A DNA stretch of 64,000 nt from an uncultured Phycisphaerae bacterium. Lineage in GTDB: Bacteria; Planctomycetota; Phycisphaerae; Sedimentisphaerales; Anaerohalosphaeraceae. The number at the start of each line of letters is the position of its first letter. Position 1 is the stretch's first letter. A model generated the notes under the pieces. It was given only the letters and a program-made list of their open reading frames with translations, did no database searches and had not been told where the DNA came from. The stretch covers positions 1-64,000 of the forward strand of contig CALEDR010000027.1 of the NCBI GenBank assembly GCA_937949545.1. Reading direction: 5' to 3'. The position numbers and the translations under genes are program-made. Positions 1 through 11,560 of the stretch are shown here, piece by piece.

Positions 1-90
1 TTTGTGATGAGTATTTTCTTCCAGAATTCCAAAGCGTAACGGACCGTTTCGGGCCGCTGCTCTGCGGCCCCTTGTATGAGGAGTTGTGCT

Positions 91-732
91 ATGCTGTCAT
101 TCTTGCGAGATGGAAGTCAGACGCCGGCTGCCGCCCGGATCGAAAACGAAGGGGCTTCGGCTTCGCCGTCGCCTGCGGCTTCGGATTTTCTGCGTCCGGC
201 CGTTCGGAATCAAACGGTCAAGCAGGGAACCATACTCCTGATGATTCTGTTTTTGACCGGCGGAGCGGCGGTCTGGTGGATGGTCAAAAAATCCGGGCCG
301 TCTGAGGCGCAGGGATCCACGGTGGCGGAAACCTCTCAAATCGACGAGGTGCTGACGCAGCTGAGCTCCTTTCAGAAAGATATGAATTCCCAGATGAATT
401 CCGTTGCCGGCCGATTTTCACAGGTTTCAGAGCTCGGTCAGATTACGGTGTCGGACCTGAAGAAAAACCCCTTCCGTCAGGAGCTGTCCTCCGGCGGTCC
501 TGACCTGTCGTTCAGTCAGGCCCTGATGCGGAAGGAAGAGATGCGGCGAAAAGCCGCCGGGCTGAAACTGTGGAGCATCACCGCTCGTGCGGACCGGTCC
601 TGCTGCATGATCGGCGACAAGGTCCTCTATGTCGGGGACGCCGTCAGCGGGTTTGTGGTCAAAGAGATTCATCCGGACCGGGTGGTTCTCGGCTGGGAAG
701 ACCTTACTGTGGAGCTGAAAATAGAGGAATGA
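91..732 (+). CDS. GspC/PilP-like inner-membrane pilus or secretion protein
   Basis: About 213 residues. ATG at 91 is preferred over ATG at 76 because GAGGAG at 79-84 lies 6 bases upstream. Residues about 45-65 form one transmembrane helix (LLMILFLTGGAAVWWMV), preceded by a short cytoplasmic part and followed by a polar periplasmic region. The C-terminal 60 residues (LKLWSI, then KVLYVGDAVSGF and a beta-rich end) resemble the small beta domain of GspC/PilP proteins that link the inner-membrane platform to the secretin. The family assignment is inferred from layout and neighbours rather than from a diagnostic motif. The stop overlaps the pilB start (ATGA). Bases 1-39 could hold the last codons of an upstream gene, and 51-70 form a GC-rich hairpin. 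Confidence 0.6.
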   Translation: MLSFLRDGSQTPAAARIENEGASASPSPAASDFLRPAVRNQTVKQGTILLMILFLTGGAAVWWMVKKSGPSEAQGSTVAETSQIDEVLTQLSSFQKDMNSQMNSVAGRFSQVSELGQITVSDLKKNPFRQELSSGGPDLSFSQALMRKEEMRRKAAGLKLWSITARADRSCCMIGDKVLYVGDAVSGFVVKEIHPDRVVLGWEDLTVELKIEE

Positions 733-2663
733 AGCGATTATTCGGAAAAAATAAAACGTCCCCGGAGCCGGTGGCTCTGGCTGACCTCGAAGATCAGAAC
801 GGCCAAATTGAATTGGCCCCCGGCCTGAGGAATCTGTATTGTCCGGAGCCCAAGGCTGCTCTGCATGTCCGCGATTTGGCGGATGTGCTGGCGGAGATGG
901 GGGTTTTGACCGCTGAACAGCTTCAGGAACTGCGGGCCGAGAAGGTACACGGGGAGGAGCTGGAAAAACACCTGAAAAAGAAGGGCATCTCTCCCGATGC
1001 GATTCTGGAGGCCAAGGCCCGTCTGTACGGCTATGAGTTTGTCCGCCTGGAACCTGAAAAAGTGGACCGGGAGGTCTTCAAGAAACTCGACAAGGACTAC
1101 ATTTGCAGCAATCATCTGATGCCGGTGGCCGTAGAAAACGGCGTGCTGGTGCTGGCCGCCAGCGACCCGTCGAATGTGTTCGGGTTTGACGACGTCAAAC
1201 GCCAGACGGGGATGAACCTTCGGGTGGTGGTCTGCACGCCGCAGAATATCGAAGCCGTCTGCGATGCGCTGGACGAAAGCAAGTTCGATTACAACGTGGA
1301 TGAAATCATCAGCGATTTGGGGGAAATCGAACTGGTCCAGGAGAGCGAAGAAAGCATCGAAGACCTCGAAAAAAGCGCCGGCGAATCCCCGGTCATTAAG
1401 TTTGTCAATTATATTCTCAGCAATGCCCTGCGGGAGGGAGCCAGCGATATTCATATTGAACCGAAGGAAAAGTACACCAAAATTCGGTATCGCATCGACG
1501 GGGTGCTGTTTGAAATCCAGCAGGCGCCGGCCAAAATGCATCCGGCGATTGTCTCACGTCTGAAAATTATGGCCAATCTGGACATTTCCGAGCGGCGCAT
1601 TCCGCAGGACGGGAAAATCGCCGTGATTATGGGCGGACGCGGGGTGGATTTGCGGGTGTCGGTGCTGCCGACCTGCCACGGCGAAAAGGTGGTGGTGCGT
1701 CTGCTGGACAGCAAAAGCATTATGCTCGGGCTGGATAAATCGGGAATGGAGCCCCGGGTGCTCAAGGCCTTTCAGGAGCAGATTGAGCTGCCGCACGGCA
1801 TTCTGCTGGTGACGGGCCCGACGGGCAGCGGCAAAAGCACAACGCTTTATTCGGCCCTGGCCCAGATGGACAGCGAGCGGCTGAACGTTTCGACGGTGGA
1901 GGACCCGGTGGAGTATCAGCTGGAGTACTGCAATCAGGTCCAGGTGAACGAAAAAGCCGGAATGACCTTTGCAGCGGCCCTGCGCAGCCTGCTTCGTCAG
2001 GACCCGGACATCATCATGATCGGTGAGATTCGCGACCAGGAGACAGCCCGGATTGCCGTCCAGGCGGCCCTGACAGGCCATTTGGTGCTGTCCACGCTGC
2101 ACACCAACGATGCTCCCAGCAGCGTCTCCCGACTGGTGAATATCGGTGTAGAACCGTATCTGATTGCCGCCTCACTGAACGCCATCCTGGCTCAGCGTCT
2201 CGTGCGGCGCATCTGCGAGCACTGCAAGGAAGCCGTTCCTGTTCCCGATTCGGTGCGCCGGTATTTTGAACGGGCCCGGATTGAGATCAGCGAAATGATG
2301 CGGGGCAAAGGATGCGACAAATGCCGCCAGAGCGGCTATTCCGGCCGGGCGGGCATCTTTGAGCTGCTGGTGGTGGATGAAAAGTTCCGCCAGCTGATTC
2401 ACGAGGACCCCTCCGTCCACACCATGCGGAAGGCCTTCGCCAAAAGCGGCTGGCCGACGCTGTTTGAAGACGGTCTGCAGAAAGTCAAAAAAGGAATCAC
2501 CACGATAGAAGAAGTCCTTCGGGTGACCGAAGAGGTCCGTCTGGAAGAAGAGGAACCGCCGGTCAGGCCAGCCGTCAAACCTGCTTCGGAATCGCCGGCA
2601 GTTTCAGAGGAAACCGCTTCGACGGAAAAGAAACGGACGGAACGAGTGAGGAAGAAAGCATGA
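729..2663 (+). CDS. pilB: Type IV pilus assembly / type II secretion ATPase PilB (GspE)
   Basis: 644 residues starting at the ATG that overlaps the previous stop. The enzyme is a cytoplasmic hexameric ATPase that drives pilus or pseudopilus extension. The N-terminal 230 residues form a GspE/MshE-type N domain. The ATPase core carries Walker A GPTGSGKST near residue 363, the Asp box before it, Walker B with IMIGEIRD, and the His box (LVLSTLHTND). A zinc site with two CxxC pairs (CEHC near residue 496 and CDKC further on) is typical of the PilB/GspE branch and absent from PilT. The C-terminal 40 residues are a charged Glu/Lys-rich extension. It is translationally coupled to pilT by a 4-base overlap. 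Confidence 0.93.
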   Translation: MKRLFGKNKTSPEPVALADLEDQNGQIELAPGLRNLYCPEPKAALHVRDLADVLAEMGVLTAEQLQELRAEKVHGEELEKHLKKKGISPDAILEAKARLYGYEFVRLEPEKVDREVFKKLDKDYICSNHLMPVAVENGVLVLAASDPSNVFGFDDVKRQTGMNLRVVVCTPQNIEAVCDALDESKFDYNVDEIISDLGEIELVQESEESIEDLEKSAGESPVIKFVNYILSNALREGASDIHIEPKEKYTKIRYRIDGVLFEIQQAPAKMHPAIVSRLKIMANLDISERRIPQDGKIAVIMGGRGVDLRVSVLPTCHGEKVVVRLLDSKSIMLGLDKSGMEPRVLKAFQEQIELPHGILLVTGPTGSGKSTTLYSALAQMDSERLNVSTVEDPVEYQLEYCNQVQVNEKAGMTFAAALRSLLRQDPDIIMIGEIRDQETARIAVQAALTGHLVLSTLHTNDAPSSVSRLVNIGVEPYLIAASLNAILAQRLVRRICEHCKEAVPVPDSVRRYFERARIEISEMMRGKGCDKCRQSGYSGRAGIFELLVVDEKFRQLIHEDPSVHTMRKAFAKSGWPTLFEDGLQKVKKGITTIEEVLRVTEEVRLEEEEPPVRPAVKPASESPAVSEETASTEKKRTERVRKKA

Positions 2664-3766
2664 TTTCAGTCAAAGATATTCTGGCGGTTGCCATTCAGTC
2701 CGGTGCATCGGACGTACATATCAACACCAATCTGCCTCCGGTGATGCGCATCAACACGGAGCTGATTCTGATGGACATGCCGGAGGTAACGGCGGAGGAT
2801 GCGGCGGCGATGGTGCTGGAGATGGTCGGGCCGGAAAAATTCAAGAAGTTTGAGGAAAAGCGCGACCTGGATTTTTCGACCATGATTGACGACGGCAGCC
2901 GATTCCGCGTCAACGCCCATTACCAGAAGGAAAGCATTGCGATTTCCTTCCGTGCGATTTCCAATAAGGTGCCGAACATTGACGACCTGCATCTGCCAGA
3001 AATCGTCAAGGAACTGACGGACCTGCCCCGCGGGCTGGTGATTGTCACCGGTCATACCGGGTCGGGCAAAAGCACCACGCTGGCTTCCATGATCGGCGTC
3101 ATCAACAGAAAATACAAAAAACGCATCATTACACTGGAGGACCCTATCGAATATCTGCTTGAAAATCAGTCGTGCATGATTGAACAGCGGGAAATCGGTT
3201 CGGACTGTCCGACCTTCGCCTCCGGTCTGCGGCATGCTCTGAGGCAGGACCCCGACATCATTCTGGTCGGCGAAATGCGCGACCTGGAAACCACCAGTGC
3301 GACCATTACCGCCGCCGAAACGGGCCATTTGGTGCTGTCCACCCTGCACACGGTGAACGCTTCTCAGACGGTCGAGCGTATCATTGATATTTATCCGGCC
3401 AGCCAGCAGAACCAGATTCGGGCGATGCTGGCCAATACGCTCCAGGCCGTCATTTCCCAGACGCTGTTCCGGCGCATCGACCAGCCGGGCATGGTGCCCT
3501 GTACGGAGATTCTGCTGTGCACCTCGGCAGTGCGCAACTGCATCCGTGAAAACCGGATTTATGAGATTCCCAACATCATTGAAACCTCCCGGCGTCTGGG
3601 GATGCAGACGATGGACTACAGCATCCAGCAGATGTATGAGGCCGGCTATATTGACCGTGAAGAGGCGATTAACCGCTCCAGCAACCCGGCCAAAATGGAA
3701 AAACTGCTTGCCCCGGCTCCCGTTCGGAAAACCGCTGCTTCTGCAAAAGCCAAAGCAACCGTCTGA
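2660..3766 (+). CDS. pilT: Twitching motility / pilus retraction ATPase PilT
   Basis: 368 residues, start overlapping the pilB stop (ATGA). It belongs to the same secretion-ATPase superfamily as PilB but is shorter and lacks the N domain and the zinc cysteines. Visible motifs are Walker A GHTGSGKST near residue 133, Walker B in DIILVGEMRD and the His box GHLVLSTLHT. Pilus retraction is the usual role. PilB and PilT side by side argue for a dynamic type IV pilus rather than a pure type II secretion system, although no secretin gene lies in this window. Confidence 0.92.
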   Translation: MISVKDILAVAIQSGASDVHINTNLPPVMRINTELILMDMPEVTAEDAAAMVLEMVGPEKFKKFEEKRDLDFSTMIDDGSRFRVNAHYQKESIAISFRAISNKVPNIDDLHLPEIVKELTDLPRGLVIVTGHTGSGKSTTLASMIGVINRKYKKRIITLEDPIEYLLENQSCMIEQREIGSDCPTFASGLRHALRQDPDIILVGEMRDLETTSATITAAETGHLVLSTLHTVNASQTVERIIDIYPASQQNQIRAMLANTLQAVISQTLFRRIDQPGMVPCTEILLCTSAVRNCIRENRIYEIPNIIETSRRLGMQTMDYSIQQMYEAGYIDREEAINRSSNPAKMEKLLAPAPVRKTAASAKAKATV

Positions 3767-3780
3767 TGGAGTAAGAGACG

Positions 3781-4941
3781 ATGAATATTCTTGAAAAACT
3801 CGGCACACAAACGTCCCGTTCACAGCGTCTGGAAGAGGCGGCGGCTGTTTCGCATGCGGCCCCGAAACCCAAGCCGCAGGGCTTTCGAGTGGAATTCGGC
3901 CCCAGCCGCAAAGATATTCTGAACTTTACCAACCAGCTGGCGGTGATGCTGCGGGCGGGCATCAGTCTGCAGGACGCCCTCGAATCGATCGGGATGCAGA
4001 TTCAAAAGCAGAAATTCCGTCGGATTGTTCTGGACCTCAAGCAGCAGATTGAGGCCGGCAAAAGCTTCTCGCAGGCCCTGGCCGGACATCCGGAGGTCTT
4101 CAATAACTTGTATGTCAACATGGTGGCGGCCGCGGAAATCTCCGGTTCGATGAGTTCGATGCTCCAGCGGCTGGCAGAATACCTCGACCAGGAGGCGGAG
4201 ACGCGAAGCCATGTCATCAGTGCGATGATTTACCCGATTATCATCGGCGTGATGGCCGTCACCTGCGTGACGTTTCTGCTGACGTTTGTTCTGCCCCGGT
4301 TCCTGGTTGTCTTTGAAGGCAAGGAGCATCTGCTGCCCACGCCGACCAAACTGATTATGGCTCTGAGCACCGGCATCCGGACGTACTGGTTTATTGTGTT
4401 TCCGGCAATCGGGATGCTGTTTGTCGGATTCTGGTACTTTACTCGCAAAACCCCGTTCGGCAAACGCTGGTGGGACCGAACAAAGCTGCGGATTCCTCTG
4501 CTGAAAACCCTCTGCCGGAGTCTGTATATCACCCGCAGCATGCATACGATGGGGGTGCTGACCAATGCGGGCGTGCCCATCCTCGACACCATCTCGATTA
4601 CCGCTCAAATTACCGGCAACACCCTGTATGAAGGGATGTGGAAGGGGGTGTTTGAGGAGGTCCGGCAGGGCAAGAAGATTGCCTCCAGTCTAGCCCAGTT
4701 TACGCTGATGCCCTCCAATGTGGTTCAGATGATTCAGTCCGGTGAGGAATCGGGTACCCTCGGGGATGTGCTTAATGATATTTCGCAGTTTTATGCCCGC
4801 GAGCTGCGGACGGTTATTAAAACGGTAACCAGCATGATTGAGCCGCTGATGATAGTGGTGATGGGCTTGCTGGTGGGCTTTATTGCGATGAGCATTATTC
4901 TGCCCATCTTCAAGATGTCCAGCGTCGTCACCAGCGGCTGA
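3781..4941 (+). CDS. pilC: Type IV pilus inner-membrane platform protein PilC (GspF)
   Basis: 386 residues with a GGAG ribosome site 9 bases before the ATG. This is the polytopic platform protein that couples the PilB/PilT ATPases to pilin assembly. Two T2SSF repeats are visible, each opening with a FTNQLAVML- or RSMHTMGVL-like helix and holding the glycine-rich LRAGISLQDALE and TNAGVPILDTI segments. Hydrophobic stretches near residues 150-175, 200-220 and 360-380 fit the three-helix topology. The first 40 residues are a polar cytoplasmic tail. It sits 14 bases after pilT in the same operon. Confidence 0.93.
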   Translation: MNILEKLGTQTSRSQRLEEAAAVSHAAPKPKPQGFRVEFGPSRKDILNFTNQLAVMLRAGISLQDALESIGMQIQKQKFRRIVLDLKQQIEAGKSFSQALAGHPEVFNNLYVNMVAAAEISGSMSSMLQRLAEYLDQEAETRSHVISAMIYPIIIGVMAVTCVTFLLTFVLPRFLVVFEGKEHLLPTPTKLIMALSTGIRTYWFIVFPAIGMLFVGFWYFTRKTPFGKRWWDRTKLRIPLLKTLCRSLYITRSMHTMGVLTNAGVPILDTISITAQITGNTLYEGMWKGVFEEVRQGKKIASSLAQFTLMPSNVVQMIQSGEESGTLGDVLNDISQFYARELRTVIKTVTSMIEPLMIVVMGLLVGFIAMSIILPIFKMSSVVTSG

Positions 4942-4956
4942 TAAGGAGACCTGTTT

Positions 4957-5388
4957 ATGAGACCCGGAAGATATCGAAGGAGACAGGGGTTTACGCTTCT
5001 GGAGGCGCTGTTTGCCGCTATGCTGATCGGCCTGGCGATTGCCGCTCTTTTGGGCACCAGCAGCGCCTTTACGATGAAGAACGCCGCCGGTGTGGACCTG
5101 TCCACAGCGGAGTTTCTCATTGAAGAAATCCGGGAGATGACGGCTTCAGAGCCGTTTGATATTCTGCCGGCCTATGACGGCCAGTCCTACAATCCGCCCA
5201 TCGACGTGGAGAAACATCTGCTGGAGGATTTTTCGGCCTTCACGCAGCAGATACAGGTTCAGTATGTGAACGCCTCGAACCTGACCCAGACGGTCCCAGG
5301 GCCTACGGATTTTGTCCGGATCACGGTGACGATTCTGAAAAAGGACCGGCCTATCAGTTCGGCCAGCTGGATTCGGGCTCGTCTGTAA
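4957..5388 (+). CDS. Pseudopilin / minor pilin, GspI/PilV-like
   Basis: 143 residues with a GGAG ribosome site before the ATG. The N-terminus has a short basic leader (RPGRYRRRQG), the prepilin peptidase site G-FTLLEALFAA with glutamate at mature position 5, and a hydrophobic helix. This is the class III prepilin signature. The rest is a small globular domain without recognisable motifs. Length and position after pilC fit a minor pseudopilin of the GspI/PilV type. The subtype is an inference from gene order. Confidence 0.82.
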   Translation: MRPGRYRRRQGFTLLEALFAAMLIGLAIAALLGTSSAFTMKNAAGVDLSTAEFLIEEIREMTASEPFDILPAYDGQSYNPPIDVEKHLLEDFSAFTQQIQVQYVNASNLTQTVPGPTDFVRITVTILKKDRPISSASWIRARL

Positions 5389-5406
5389 CATCTCGGGAGA
5401 AATCTT

Positions 5407-5913
5407 ATGGAAAAAGGTTTTCCTATTCGAAGCGCTTTTACCCTGATGGAGGTGCTGATTTCGATGACCATCCTGGCCGTTCTGATGACGGCCGTTGCGG
5501 TGGCGTTCGACGCCTCCATGAAAAACTACAAGGACAATGAAGCGCTGGCCAAACAGATGAATATCGCCCGTGCAGCCCTTCTGCGGATGACAAACGACAT
5601 CCGCACGGCCCGCGAAATTGTTGTCAATGCGGACAGTACCCAGTGCCGTATCGCCAGCAACGGTGACGATCAACCGGATATCATCTATCGATTTGATGGA
5701 AACGTTTTGTATCTGGATGTTTGCTCCTCCTCCGGCCCGCCGATCCACTATGTCCTTTGCGAAAATATTGCAGAGATGACATTTACATGGTCCCCAGTTC
5801 CCGGCCAGCCCTCGCTCGTTCGGAATGTTCGTATCACCATGACGGTAACGGATGAGTCGAGCCAAACGTCCAAAAAACTGGCGGCTGCCGCTGTAGTCCG
5901 CAGAAACCTGTAG
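5407..5913 (+). CDS. Pseudopilin / minor pilin, GspJ/PilW-like
   Basis: 168 residues, GGGAGA ribosome site. The prepilin signal is SAFTLMEVLISMTILAVL with glutamate at mature position 5; residue -1 is alanine rather than the usual glycine, which prepilin peptidases tolerate. The soluble part (LRMTNDIRTAREI, then a strand-rich region) resembles GspJ/PilW-type minor pilins, which start with a long helix followed by beta strands. It is the last gene of the pilus operon and is followed by about 165 bases without a gene before the tRNA promoter. Confidence 0.8.
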   Translation: MEKGFPIRSAFTLMEVLISMTILAVLMTAVAVAFDASMKNYKDNEALAKQMNIARAALLRMTNDIRTAREIVVNADSTQCRIASNGDDQPDIIYRFDGNVLYLDVCSSSGPPIHYVLCENIAEMTFTWSPVPGQPSLVRNVRITMTVTDESSQTSKKLAAAAVVRRNL

Positions 5914-6988: not shown

Positions 6989-7136
6989 CCTCATTTCCTC
7001 CACATAAAAGTAGGTTTCTCTTTTCAAACGTTTCCCTCTCATGATAAAAACCACTCATTCCTCACACACACTTCACCGCTTTTTTTCCAAGGATGCTCTT
7101 TCGCCGCTGCCGTCTTAACAGTTTGCTGAGGGCAAT

Positions 7137-7150
7137 AGCAATCGGTTTCT
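7137..7150 (-). promoter_or_regulatory. Operator candidate (AGCAATCGGTTTCT)
   Basis: The left half and centre match the perfect palindrome at 7379-7396; the right half is degenerate. It lies immediately downstream of the -10 box of the minus-strand promoter at 7159-7187, covering the expected start of transcription. That is a position suited to a repressor. Confidence 0.5.
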
Positions 7151-7158
7151 AATTGCAC

Positions 7159-7187
7159 AGTTTACGATTTTTGAAAAGGAATGTCAA
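7159..7187 (-). promoter_or_regulatory. Promoter of the PEP-CTERM gene at 6344
   Basis: On the minus strand, TTGACA (7182-7187) and TAAACT (7159-7164) are separated by 17 bases. The -35 box matches the sigma-70 consensus fully. Transcription would start near 7152 and give a leader of about 165 bases. Confidence 0.65.
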
Positions 7188-7378
7188 GCCTTTTTCAGGG
7201 AAAAAATAAAAAACTTTCTTACTTGGCGGATTCTGCCAGAGAGTTTATGCGTTGCTGCAACGAGTCGGATCTGCAGGCCTTCTTTGTTTGGAAGTGCTTG
7301 TATCCCAACAGGTTGCAGACGTTTCTGTTGGGGCATCAGACGGAATAAGGTCCGGAAAAAGCGGTGTTGCCATATTAG

Positions 7379-7396
7379 ATAGCAATCGATTGCTAT
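7379..7396. promoter_or_regulatory. Perfect 18-bp palindromic operator, LacI-family type
   Basis: ATAGCAATCGATTGCTAT is an uninterrupted inverted repeat with a central CG, the usual form of LacI/GalR-family operators. It lies about 77 bases upstream of the start predicted for the plus-strand promoter at 7430-7458. Shorter versions occur at 7137 and 7497. No LacI-family gene is in this window. Confidence 0.6.
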
Positions 7397-7429
7397 TCAA
7401 GAATTTTTGATAATTTTCAATTTTTCTTC

Positions 7430-7458
7430 TTGCAAACAGCCGAAAGAAAAAGTATAGT
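7430..7458 (+). promoter_or_regulatory. Promoter of the dockerin-like gene at 7540
   Basis: TTGCAA (7430-7435) and TATAGT (7453-7458) with a 17-base spacer. Transcription would start near 7465, giving a leader of about 75 bases that contains the operator-like copy at 7497-7510 and the GGAGG ribosome site. Confidence 0.6.
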
Positions 7459-7496
7459 AGCAAGAGTCTTAACAGCAAGCGGAGCGGTTGGCAAAC

Positions 7497-7510
7497 AGCA
7501 ATCGGTTTGG
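7497..7510 (+). promoter_or_regulatory. Operator candidate (AGCAATCGGTTTGG)
   Basis: Shares AGCAATCGGTTT with the copy at 7137. It lies about 33 bases downstream of the predicted start for the plus promoter. Together with the upstream palindrome it could allow looping or a roadblock by one regulator. Confidence 0.45.
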
Positions 7511-8943: not shown

Positions 8944-8987
8944 TAAAACCATGAATCTGCCGCCAACAAGCATAAAGGTTTATCCAA

Positions 8988-9022
8988 AGAAAGGGCCGGG
9001 AGACACGCCGGCCTTTTCTTTT
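8988..9022 (+). terminator. Rho-independent terminator after the dockerin-like gene
   Basis: Stem GGCCGG/CCGGCC (8994-8999 with 9008-9013), extended by A-T pairs and followed by TTTTCTTTT. It lies between the stop at 8943 and the ATG at 9035, so the next gene cannot sensibly start at 8951. Confidence 0.75.
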
Positions 9023-9034
9023 CTCGGGAAACGG

Positions 9035-9859
9035 ATGGAAGCGAAAAAGACCGGACCTGCTGCCTTTACGCTGATTGAACTGCTGGTTGTCATTGCCGTT
9101 GTTTCCCTTCTGCTGGCCGTCATTGTTCCTGCCCTGCGAAAAGCCAAAGAATCCGCCCGCGCTGTCGTTTGCCGGACGCACTTGAAAACCCTCGCGTTAG
9201 CCAATGAACTCTATGCTGCCCGCTGCGACAATTGGTATGTGCCTGTAATTGACACCACGATGACGGCACGCGGTGAACCGACCTGGAACTCCAACACCCT
9301 CTTTCGAGAACTGGTCGGTCTTCAAAGCGCCTATGTTGGCAGCAGTTATATCCTGCCGCCGGAGTACCTCTGTCCCTCTGACAGGCAATCCAACGAGGCC
9401 TACTGGAATCAGGCCGGCGTGACCTATGCCAACTTCGTCAGCTACGGCTATAATCTGACCGACTGGGGCCCCGACTCCCGCAGTCCGGTCTCCTGGAGCG
9501 GCAATATTCCGGTAAGCACCTGGTCCTGCCGCTTCCGGGTCGGAACACTCCGCACCCCCGCCGAAGCCATTATGTTTGCCGACGCCGGCGACATCTGGGT
9601 CCGCAAAGCCGGCGCCGACTACAAAACCTATTGGAATCAGTACGGGCAGGACATCGTCAAATACCGCGCCCGCAGTATGTGGCATCCCGTTTATTACCGA
9701 CATAAGGAAGGCGCCAACCTGTCCTTTTTCGACGGACACGTCGAATTTCTCAAAAAGGAGTCCCTATTTTTCTATCGGAACAATTCAAATACCCCCGACG
9801 ACGGAAGAAACAATCAGATTTGGTTCTGCATTCCCCAAAACCGCCCCAGACCCGACTGA
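9035..9859 (+). CDS. Pseudopilin-like secreted protein with H-X9-DG motif
   Basis: 274 residues. ATG at 9035 is preferred over the in-frame ATG at 8951 because the terminator of the previous gene lies between them. The prepilin signal is AAFTLIELLVVIAVVSLLLAV, with Glu at mature position 5. Near the C-terminus, H-KEGANLSFF-DG matches the processing-associated H-X9-DG motif found in large families of planctomycete and verrucomicrobial pseudopilins. The middle is rich in Trp/Tyr and unrecognised. These proteins usually occur in many copies next to secreted enzymes; their function is unknown. Confidence 0.85.
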   Translation: MEAKKTGPAAFTLIELLVVIAVVSLLLAVIVPALRKAKESARAVVCRTHLKTLALANELYAARCDNWYVPVIDTTMTARGEPTWNSNTLFRELVGLQSAYVGSSYILPPEYLCPSDRQSNEAYWNQAGVTYANFVSYGYNLTDWGPDSRSPVSWSGNIPVSTWSCRFRVGTLRTPAEAIMFADAGDIWVRKAGADYKTYWNQYGQDIVKYRARSMWHPVYYRHKEGANLSFFDGHVEFLKKESLFFYRNNSNTPDDGRNNQIWFCIPQNRPRPD

Positions 9860-10013: not shown

Positions 10014-11531
10014 TTATTGTTTCTTCCGGACAAGCATCAGCACGCTGCCCAATCCGAGTATTACTACTGTAGCCGGTTCCGGAATAACCGAGGACGCTAC
10101 AACAAACACATCTGTGTTGTCAATATAACACCCGTTAAATCCCATGGCAGCCCAGTCAGAGTAGTAGAGATCAAAATTGCTGTCGATTCCGTCCACCAGA
10201 GCGGCAAAACGGTCAGCGCCATACCCGCGTGCAAACAACGGCACCAGTTCGTTTGTATGGTTGCCGCTCCACCAGCGAACGCCGTTCGGGTTGCTGCTGG
10301 TGTATGTTCCCGCATTTATGTTGTCCCGCGAGATCCGCTCGTGAGGAATTATGTTGGAACTTTCTCCGCTCGGCATCGAATTGCCGTGATCTGTGGTAAC
10401 AATCAGGAGGTTGTTTTCCCAGCCGCCGTTGTTTTCAATCCAGTTGATCACGGCTTTGACGGCATTGTTAAAGTCAAGCTGCTCTTCAACGAGACGGCTG
10501 GTCTGATTCGCATGAGCCGCCCAATCGACCGCACCGCCTTCAATCTGTAAAAAGATTCCGTTGCCGTTGTCGAGATGCTGGAGTACATTCAATGCCGCCA
10601 GCGTCATTGTTACCAGTGAAGGAACGGAGACATTAAAGGGATCGCTGAATACCGTGTCGGTATGGCTGTAGCCGCTGCGAGCCTGCTGGAGCGTCGTAGC
10701 CACCTGGGCGGTTCCAACCAACCGAGTTTTGCCGTTCAGAATAGACAGATCGCCGTTGGCGAGAGCTTCAAATTCGCTTTTGGTCTGAATGGACTTCCAG
10801 TCGTTGGGATGCGTGTCGGTGTTCAGCTGGTTCCAAACAGTTTGTCCCCCGACGTATTTGTAATCTTGGCCGCTGGTTTTCAAGGTGCCGTTGTTGGTAT
10901 AGTCCGGATTGCCGGCGCCCATAATGACATCCATCACATTGCCGTTGAGCATATCATTGGCAATGGCCTCATAATTATTGCGGCTGACATCATGGGCATC
11001 ACTGAATGCGGCGGGAGTAGCATGGGACCATTGTACCGATGAAATCGTTCCGACAACCTTGCCGTTCGCCTTGGCCAGTTCCGGAAGCGTCGGCATAATG
11101 GGTGCATTTAAATTGCTCCAGTTGATGGCATTGTTATAGGTCTTTTGACCGGTACTCAATGCCGTGCCGGCGGCAGCAGAGTCGGCGGCATTCTGATGGA
11201 GATAGCCGGACGATGTGTTATAACTGGCCAACCCCCATGCCCTGGAAGGATCGTAACCGACCATGGGGGTCATGCTGCCGGTTGGTGTCGAAGAAGTATT
11301 CAGCGGATAAGTCGTCATTAAATACTTGCTCCACTCTGAACCGAAATACGGGCTCGCACAGGTTGTGCCGTATTCGTATAAATCGGCTGCGTCCCAGGCG
11401 CCGAATGAGGCACCATCCGAGATCATCACAATAACATTTGTTGATGCTGTCGCCGAAGCGGATATCATCGGCAGAATGAAGGTGGCCATGGTCGCGAACA
11501 AAGACAATCTGTTTTTCATCTTTCCTTTCAT
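10014..11531 (-). CDS. Exported alkaline phosphatase with PEP-CTERM anchor
   Basis: 505 residues; the ATG at 11531 follows GGAGG with a 5-base gap. After a signal peptide (LSLFATMATFILPMISASA) comes an alkaline phosphatase superfamily domain (PF00245 type). Visible metal and catalytic residues are the Asp in VIVMISDGAS, the nucleophile serine in DSAAAGTALSTG, Asp/His in GAVDWAAHAN, Asp-His in VTTDHGN, and the His in GNHTNELVP. It hydrolyses phosphate monoesters outside the cytoplasm. The C-terminus IPEPATVVILGLGSVLML then RKKQ is a PEP-CTERM sorting signal, so the enzyme is probably surface-attached or released by an exosortase pathway. It has its own terminator. Confidence 0.9.
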   Translation of the reverse strand: MKGKMKNRLSLFATMATFILPMISASATASTNVIVMISDGASFGAWDAADLYEYGTTCASPYFGSEWSKYLMTTYPLNTSSTPTGSMTPMVGYDPSRAWGLASYNTSSGYLHQNAADSAAAGTALSTGQKTYNNAINWSNLNAPIMPTLPELAKANGKVVGTISSVQWSHATPAAFSDAHDVSRNNYEAIANDMLNGNVMDVIMGAGNPDYTNNGTLKTSGQDYKYVGGQTVWNQLNTDTHPNDWKSIQTKSEFEALANGDLSILNGKTRLVGTAQVATTLQQARSGYSHTDTVFSDPFNVSVPSLVTMTLAALNVLQHLDNGNGIFLQIEGGAVDWAAHANQTSRLVEEQLDFNNAVKAVINWIENNGGWENNLLIVTTDHGNSMPSGESSNIIPHERISRDNINAGTYTSSNPNGVRWWSGNHTNELVPLFARGYGADRFAALVDGIDSNFDLYYSDWAAMGFNGCYIDNTDVFVVASSVIPEPATVVILGLGSVLMLVRKKQ

Positions 11532-11560
11532 AATTTCCTCCATTTGTTCCTTTCTTTTTT

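Follow-up and report, generated by a model that had tools for sequence, protein, structure and literature searches.

Are the palindromic sequences between two divergent genes for secreted proteins in an uncultured Phycisphaerae bacterium regulatory sites and, if so, which protein acts on them and to what effect? The question was raised by a first-pass annotation of a 64,000 nt stretch of contig CALEDR010000027.1 (assembly GCA_937949545.1; genome G000 below), termed the window throughout. This reported a palindrome, ATAGCAATCGATTGCTAT, at 7379-7396 and two partial copies, AGCAATCGGTTT, from 7137 and from 7497, all of which are indeed present at these positions, and interpreted them as LacI-type operators through which a regulator encoded outside the window would control both genes by looping.

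Precedents for such control come from members of the LacI/GalR family. For instance, Bacillus subtilis CcpA generally activates from cre sites upstream of the -35 box, in a phase-dependent manner, and represses from sites near the transcription start, with more palindromic sites being bound better (PMC3463425). Similarly, the LacI-family protein GlyR3 of Clostridium thermocellum, associated with celC-glyR3-licA, has laminaribiose as its effector and is reported to answer it differently at two sites (PMC5483248). The planctomycetes themselves possess pilin-like proteins that have been proposed to capture polysaccharides (reviewed in PMC12078418).

Operators in the divergent region

Two of the three sites (operators 1 and 2 in Table 1) are true LacI-type operators, well beyond chance expectation. 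With up to three mismatches permitted, the 18-mer ATAGCAATCGATTGCTAT matches the window twice, exactly at 7379 and with three mismatches at 7135, against 0.01 matches expected from shuffled sequences. A scoring matrix built solely from the operators of a distant lacI locus and its orthologues, located on another contig and in other species, ranked 7136-7151 first and 7380-7395 second in the 64 kb, scores that were reached by none and by one of 200 simulated windows, respectively. As is typical of LacI-family operators, AGCAAnCGnTTGCT is an even palindrome with a central CG and conserved arms.

Alignment with three congeners (G004, G003 and G002) places both operators among the best conserved intergenic blocks. 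The core of operator 1 is identical in G004 and G003 and reads AGCAACCGGTTTCT in G002; operator 2 is AGCAAGCGTTTGCT in the former pair and AGCAAGCGGTTGCT in the latter, such that the arms are constant and the bases flanking the central CG vary. The copy at 7497 scores at chance level with the lacI-locus matrix, being exceeded by 92% of simulated windows. It carries a one-base deletion plus changes (GGC-ATCGGTTCG) in G004 and G003, the two closest species, and is absent from the aligned intergenic region of G002; contrary to its original designation, it is probably not a functional operator.

Table 1. Coordinates of the operators, predicted promoters and genes of the divergent region within the window
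Feature	Position	Strand	Details
Secreted PEP-CTERM protein, 214 aa	6344-6988	-	PEP-CTERM in Pfam
Operator 1, AGCAATCGGTTTCT	7137-7150, centre 7143.5	+	27.4 bits; +8.5 of minus-strand promoter
Predicted minus promoter, TTGACA-17-TAAACT	7159-7187	-	PEP-CTERM gene; start near 7152; consensus score 15.5
Operator 2, perfect palindrome ATAGCAATCGATTGCTAT	7379-7396, core 7381-7394, centre 7387.5		20.0 bits; -77.5 of plus-strand promoter
Predicted plus promoter, TTGCAA-17-TATAGT	7430-7458	+	Start near 7465
Third partial copy, AGCAATCGGTTT	7497-7508	+	9.0 bits; eroded or missing in relatives
Secreted modular protein, 467 aa	7540-8943	+	ORF, GGAGG 7 nt before ATG
Prepilin-like protein	8951-9859	+	N_methyl, DUF1559/SBP_bac_10, H-X9-DG

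Genes flanking the operators

The 214 aa PEP-CTERM protein is 72-94% identical to its counterparts in three relatives. It is predicted to form a beta-sandwich, possibly CBM4-like, the best Foldseek match of its low-confidence structural model being CBM4 (1gui; E = 2.9e-4). The divergent 467 aa protein comprises a CBM-like N-terminal region, Ig/PKD-like domains and a dockerin-like C-terminus, the CBM and dockerin likenesses being judged by eye. Its model has pLDDT values under 50 at residues 1-33 and 36-90, and a fold search returned generic Ig, FN3 and PKD domains; owing to this low confidence and these generic matches, a firm CBM identity was abandoned in favour of 'CBM-like'. The prepilin-like gene that follows probably shares its operon, and a pseudopilin orthologue lies after the CBM gene in G003, G004, G002, G005, G020 and G010.

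Directly before this block, the window contains genes (76-5913) resembling by eye a type II secretion/type IV pilus machine, including PilB/GspE-like, PilT-like and PilC/GspF-like proteins and two small prepilins; the same neighbourhood, checked in part, occurs in G004. After the pseudopilin, a secreted PEP-CTERM alkaline-phosphatase-like protein, also conserved in G004, is encoded on the minus strand at 10014-11543, and no operator was found for this gene.

A LacI-family regulator with matching operators

Four LacI-family genes are present in the G000 genome. The candidate regulator is the lacI-type gene at C33:23279-24307, the product of which contains a LacI helix-turn-helix domain (PF00356, E = 1.4e-16) and a periplasmic-binding-protein-like effector domain (PF13377, E = 1.6e-25), as expected of the family. 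A regulator outside the window, preceded by a copy of the operator, had been anticipated, and such a copy lies upstream of this gene at C33:23221, where AGCAAACGGTTTCTAATTG immediately follows a TTGACA-17-TATAAT promoter and differs by a single base from the window site AGCAATCGGTTTCTAATTG (18 of 19 positions equal). Only three places in the 2.84 Mb genome match with at most three mismatches: the 7137 site, the C33 lacI promoter and the promoter of a GH50-like gene that belongs, like lacI, to the C33 cluster. Among the nine regulator orthologues first examined (at least 60% identity), all have AGCAAnCGGTTTCT or AGCAACCGATTGCT right after the promoter, and the helix GVSKSTVSR is invariant. Binding of the C33 protein to these operators is predicted on three grounds: the matching operator of the regulator gene itself, co-occurrence and synteny.

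Genome-wide counts rest on pattern searches. Strict matches in G000 sit upstream of genes; mismatched matches on C6, C13, C16 (27066) and C30 were discounted as likely chance occurrences, since they fall inside long open frames. None of the five congeners lacks an orthologue of the regulator, several further genera of the family have one too, and a strict operator is present in 11 of 12 family genomes with the regulator compared with one of 27 without it (Fisher p = 8e-8, uncorrected for relatedness), the two agreeing in 37 of 39 genomes. The sole regulator-bearing genome lacking the strict pattern, G048, has AGAAACCGGTTGCG at the expected place, and a reversed control pattern produced almost no matches across the family genomes. 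The LacI-type assignment in the first-pass annotation is upheld by matrix scores, regulator match and conservation, and the genome search and comparison of relatives that it had suggested both came out in its favour.

Another sequence, AGTAATCGATTACT, was observed in G000 (L036, contig C44, 6727-6740), flanked on one side by a carbohydrate-kinase-like gene and on the other by a gene for a secreted protein. This site and the palindrome AGTAAACGTTTACT, present twice upstream of the nearest paralogue of the regulator on C16 (L034, about 11390 and 11480), probably represent another LacI regulon.

The beta-1,3-glucan cluster and regulon membership

The regulator gene is situated in a cluster that also encodes a GPH symporter, a 666 aa enzyme resembling GH50 agarases (E = 3e-34), a GH161 beta-1,3-glucan phosphorylase (E = 8.5e-191) and a GH16 laminarinase (E = 1.7e-64). 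The co-location of laminarinase, GH161 phosphorylase and GPH transporter identifies it as a beta-1,3-glucan utilisation locus. A GH149 label for the phosphorylase, based on a weak NCBIfam match, was replaced by GH161, and a different substrate, as hinted at by the agarase likeness, was set aside on account of the GH161 and laminarinase assignments.

The PEP-CTERM, CBM/dockerin-like and pseudopilin genes of the window lie beside this cluster in relatives. In G003 the order PEP-CBM-pseudopilin-symporter-GH50-like-lacI-phosphorylase-GH16 is contiguous, with four operators in promoter regions. The CBM/dockerin-like gene adjoins the symporter or lies a few kilobases from lacI in relatives; it shares a contig with lacI in G002, G003, G005, G010, G017, G020 and G043, and adjoins the symporter at a contig end in G001 and G053. 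In G000 and G004, the CBM block is separated from the cluster and adjoins the type II secretion/type IV pilus-like operon. The window operators are thus likely to belong to a LacI-family regulon for the use of beta-1,3-glucan (laminarin-type) and for pilin-like surface proteins.

Two fixed operator positions

For each of the 61 distinct operators present in the retrieved loci, promoters were sought on either strand by scoring against a simple sigma-70 consensus, with no choosing by fit; promoters are accordingly consensus predictions. Two positions stood out: 42 promoter matches had the operator centre at +0.5 to +12.5 (null mean 2.25, maximum 7) and 21 had it at -79.5 to -76.5 (null mean 0.63, maximum 4). 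Across 200 shuffles, the fullest four-base bin at any position contained six. The start-site group includes lacI, the GH50-like operon, the PEP-CTERM gene, other pseudopilins and PEP-CTERM/GH16 operons. To the -77 group belong the CBM-pseudopilin operons of eight genomes, the GH16 genes that have been relocated in G005 and G002, a second GPH symporter of G005 and the symporter of the cluster. As orthologous sites are not independent, the latter group amounts to approximately four or five unrelated promoters; moreover, twelve of its promoters were picked after the pattern had been seen, such that their own test (0/1000) is descriptive and the unselected test is the 61-site scan.

The window holds one operator of each class. 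The +8.5 geometry at the PEP-CTERM gene, consistent with the suggestion that this copy lies near a transcription start, is the same in G004, G003 and G002. The central palindrome, which had been considered an auxiliary site, is instead the conserved main operator of the plus-strand operon, positioned between -76.5 and -78.5 relative to the predicted start, as seen in eight species. Its end lies 35 nt before the -35 box, a spacing maintained in orthologous operons; a ninth CBM-pseudopilin operon, in G002, has 24 nt instead, placing the operator one helical turn closer. The spacer at 7395-7429 is 83% A+T.

With the cluster symporter left out, the two groups also differ in their promoters: TTGAC -35 boxes are present in 31 of 34 in the start-site group and in none of 12 in the -77 group, the spacers of which are 79% A+T compared with 57-59% in the surrounding sequence. 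The cluster symporter promoters have a -78 geometry but a good TTGACA box, hence a weak -35 box is not universal in the -77 class.

Proposed mechanism and alternatives

The operators, their match to a regulator, regulon membership and the two fixed positions are computed results. To the explanation of the locus built on them, in which one LacI-family regulator acts from both operators, we assign a probability of about 75%. The C33 protein would bind AGCAAnCGnTTkCT as a dimer, its effector probably being a laminarin-derived oligosaccharide. An operator just downstream of a -10 box is the standard arrangement for a steric block. Bound to operator 1, immediately beyond the strong TTGACA-17-TAAACT promoter, the regulator would therefore be likely to block the PEP-CTERM gene; its own gene and the enzyme operon carry operators of the start-site class as well, from which repression is very likely in general. 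By contrast, activation is what would be expected where an isolated palindrome near -77 at fixed phase precedes A+T-rich DNA and a poor -35 box. Operator 2 stands before such a UP-like stretch and the off-consensus box TTGCAA, and from there the regulator would probably assist RNA polymerase at the CBM-dockerin-pseudopilin operon; activation from this position is, by analogy, somewhat favoured. The two divergent secreted-protein genes would then be under one regulator, as originally supposed.

Looping between the three sites is rejected because the third is unconserved and the two real operators, which in four species are 244, 244, 239 and 269 bp apart, keep no constant helical phase. Looping of the lac type, with at least two conserved and phased operators on one promoter, was not evident either, G010 being the exception: one pseudopilin promoter there has sites at both -77.5 and +8.5. 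This promoter keeps open a purely repressive scheme in which the -77 palindromes serve, in the manner of lac O3, as auxiliary upstream operators that contribute to silencing, either by loop formation or by impeding the recruitment of polymerase. Such a scheme would accord with most studied LacI-family proteins being local regulators of sugar genes (PMC4052901) and with the repression of lev by CcpA from an upstream site (PMC3463425). It is nevertheless rather unlikely, as 11 of 12 -77 promoters lack any other operator scoring more than 10 bits in the interval from about -230 to +175, G053 offers as sole partner the operator of the PEP gene, a further 150 bp upstream, and -35 boxes lacking TTGAC would be odd in promoters that need silencing.

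The -77 sites are mostly full palindromes and those of lacI, the GH50-like operon and the PEP gene asymmetric, which, in a genome with four LacI-family genes, could indicate that a paralogue occupies the former and the C33 protein the latter. Yet some start-site operators are full palindromes too (a pilin gene on C331 and PEP/GH16 on C253), the distribution of the operators across the family follows that of the C33 regulator, and the nearest paralogue, on C16, has its own motif and a recognition helix of VSNATVSR rather than VSKSTVSR; this division of labour is very improbable. Hardly more plausible is a steric block at a true plus promoter overlapping operator 2, with -35 and -10 boxes flanking the palindrome. 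TTGATA/TTCATA-17-AATAAT-like pairs do surround it in G004, G003 and G005, but G000, G020, G001 and G002 have only a poor pair there, and across 12 promoters the downstream candidate at an offset of 34-35 averages 13.4, against at most 11.3 for upstream alternatives. Short motifs do arise by chance, as the 7497 copy illustrates, but functionless palindromes are scarcely conceivable for operators 1 and 2, being refuted by an independent matrix, conservation, co-occurrence and positional statistics.

Returning to a single regulator acting from two positions, a protein released by its effector would activate from -77 when substrate is absent; this calls for a physiological rationale, for example the upkeep of a basal set of surface-capture proteins. 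Tentatively, with chances a little below even, a local polysaccharide LacI regulator may be both a repressor and a helix-phased activator at about -77, splitting one beta-glucan regulon into two programmes, surface capture (CBM-like and pilin-like proteins) and intracellular breakdown.

Relation to known systems

That this is a new LacI-family regulon with a conserved two-position design is well supported. Like GlyR3, the regulator is encoded within a beta-1,3-glucanase cluster and controls its own operon from an operator near the transcription start; unlike it, the operator is AGCAAnCGnTTkCT rather than TGAACGCGCGTACA, and the available part of the GlyR3 account includes no conserved -77 class, pilin or PEP-CTERM genes (PMC5483248). 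The arrangement of operators at the start and upstream of the -35 box, at fixed helical phase, parallels that of CcpA, here in sequence geometry alone; CcpA, however, is global and works with HPr-Ser-P, whereas the present regulon is local, centred on its own cluster, with an apparently fixed -77 position (PMC3463425). The even, CG-centred palindrome, the local sugar regulator and its autoregulation resemble the RegPrecise LacI regulons, the main text of which names no planctomycete or beta-glucan regulon (PMC4052901); for planctomycetes of the Phycisphaerae type, likewise unmentioned there, the present case describes a polysaccharide-use regulon at the level of its operators. Extending the pilin-uptake idea (PMC12078418), the pseudopilin appears to share its regulation with genes for a CBM-like protein, a symporter and beta-glucan enzymes. 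This ties two kinds of protein of unknown function, pilin-like (DUF1559/H-X9-DG) and PEP-CTERM, to beta-1,3-glucan use, making the role of planctomycete pilins in polysaccharide capture directly testable, and the two positions suggest a simple rule of one protein with two signs, which can be checked with single promoters.

Additional operator-like sites

A pilin-like gene running off a contig end in G000 (L033, contig C37) has AGCAATCGGTTGCT at 9308-9321, at +0.5 of a TTGACA promoter, and is a further member of the regulon in this genome. An operator-like palindrome at C7:135121, a candidate site, lies upstream of a TonB plug-type receptor gene (L032, 7122-8902); such a gene is also found beside an operator-like palindrome in G003 (L144, contig C36, 3372-5690), and the frame appears split in both genomes. 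Finally, the palindrome AGAAAnCGGTTTCT, likewise a candidate, is found upstream of another pilin-like gene in both G000 (L203, C9:67146, near 7150) and G004 (L204, contig C18, near 6365).
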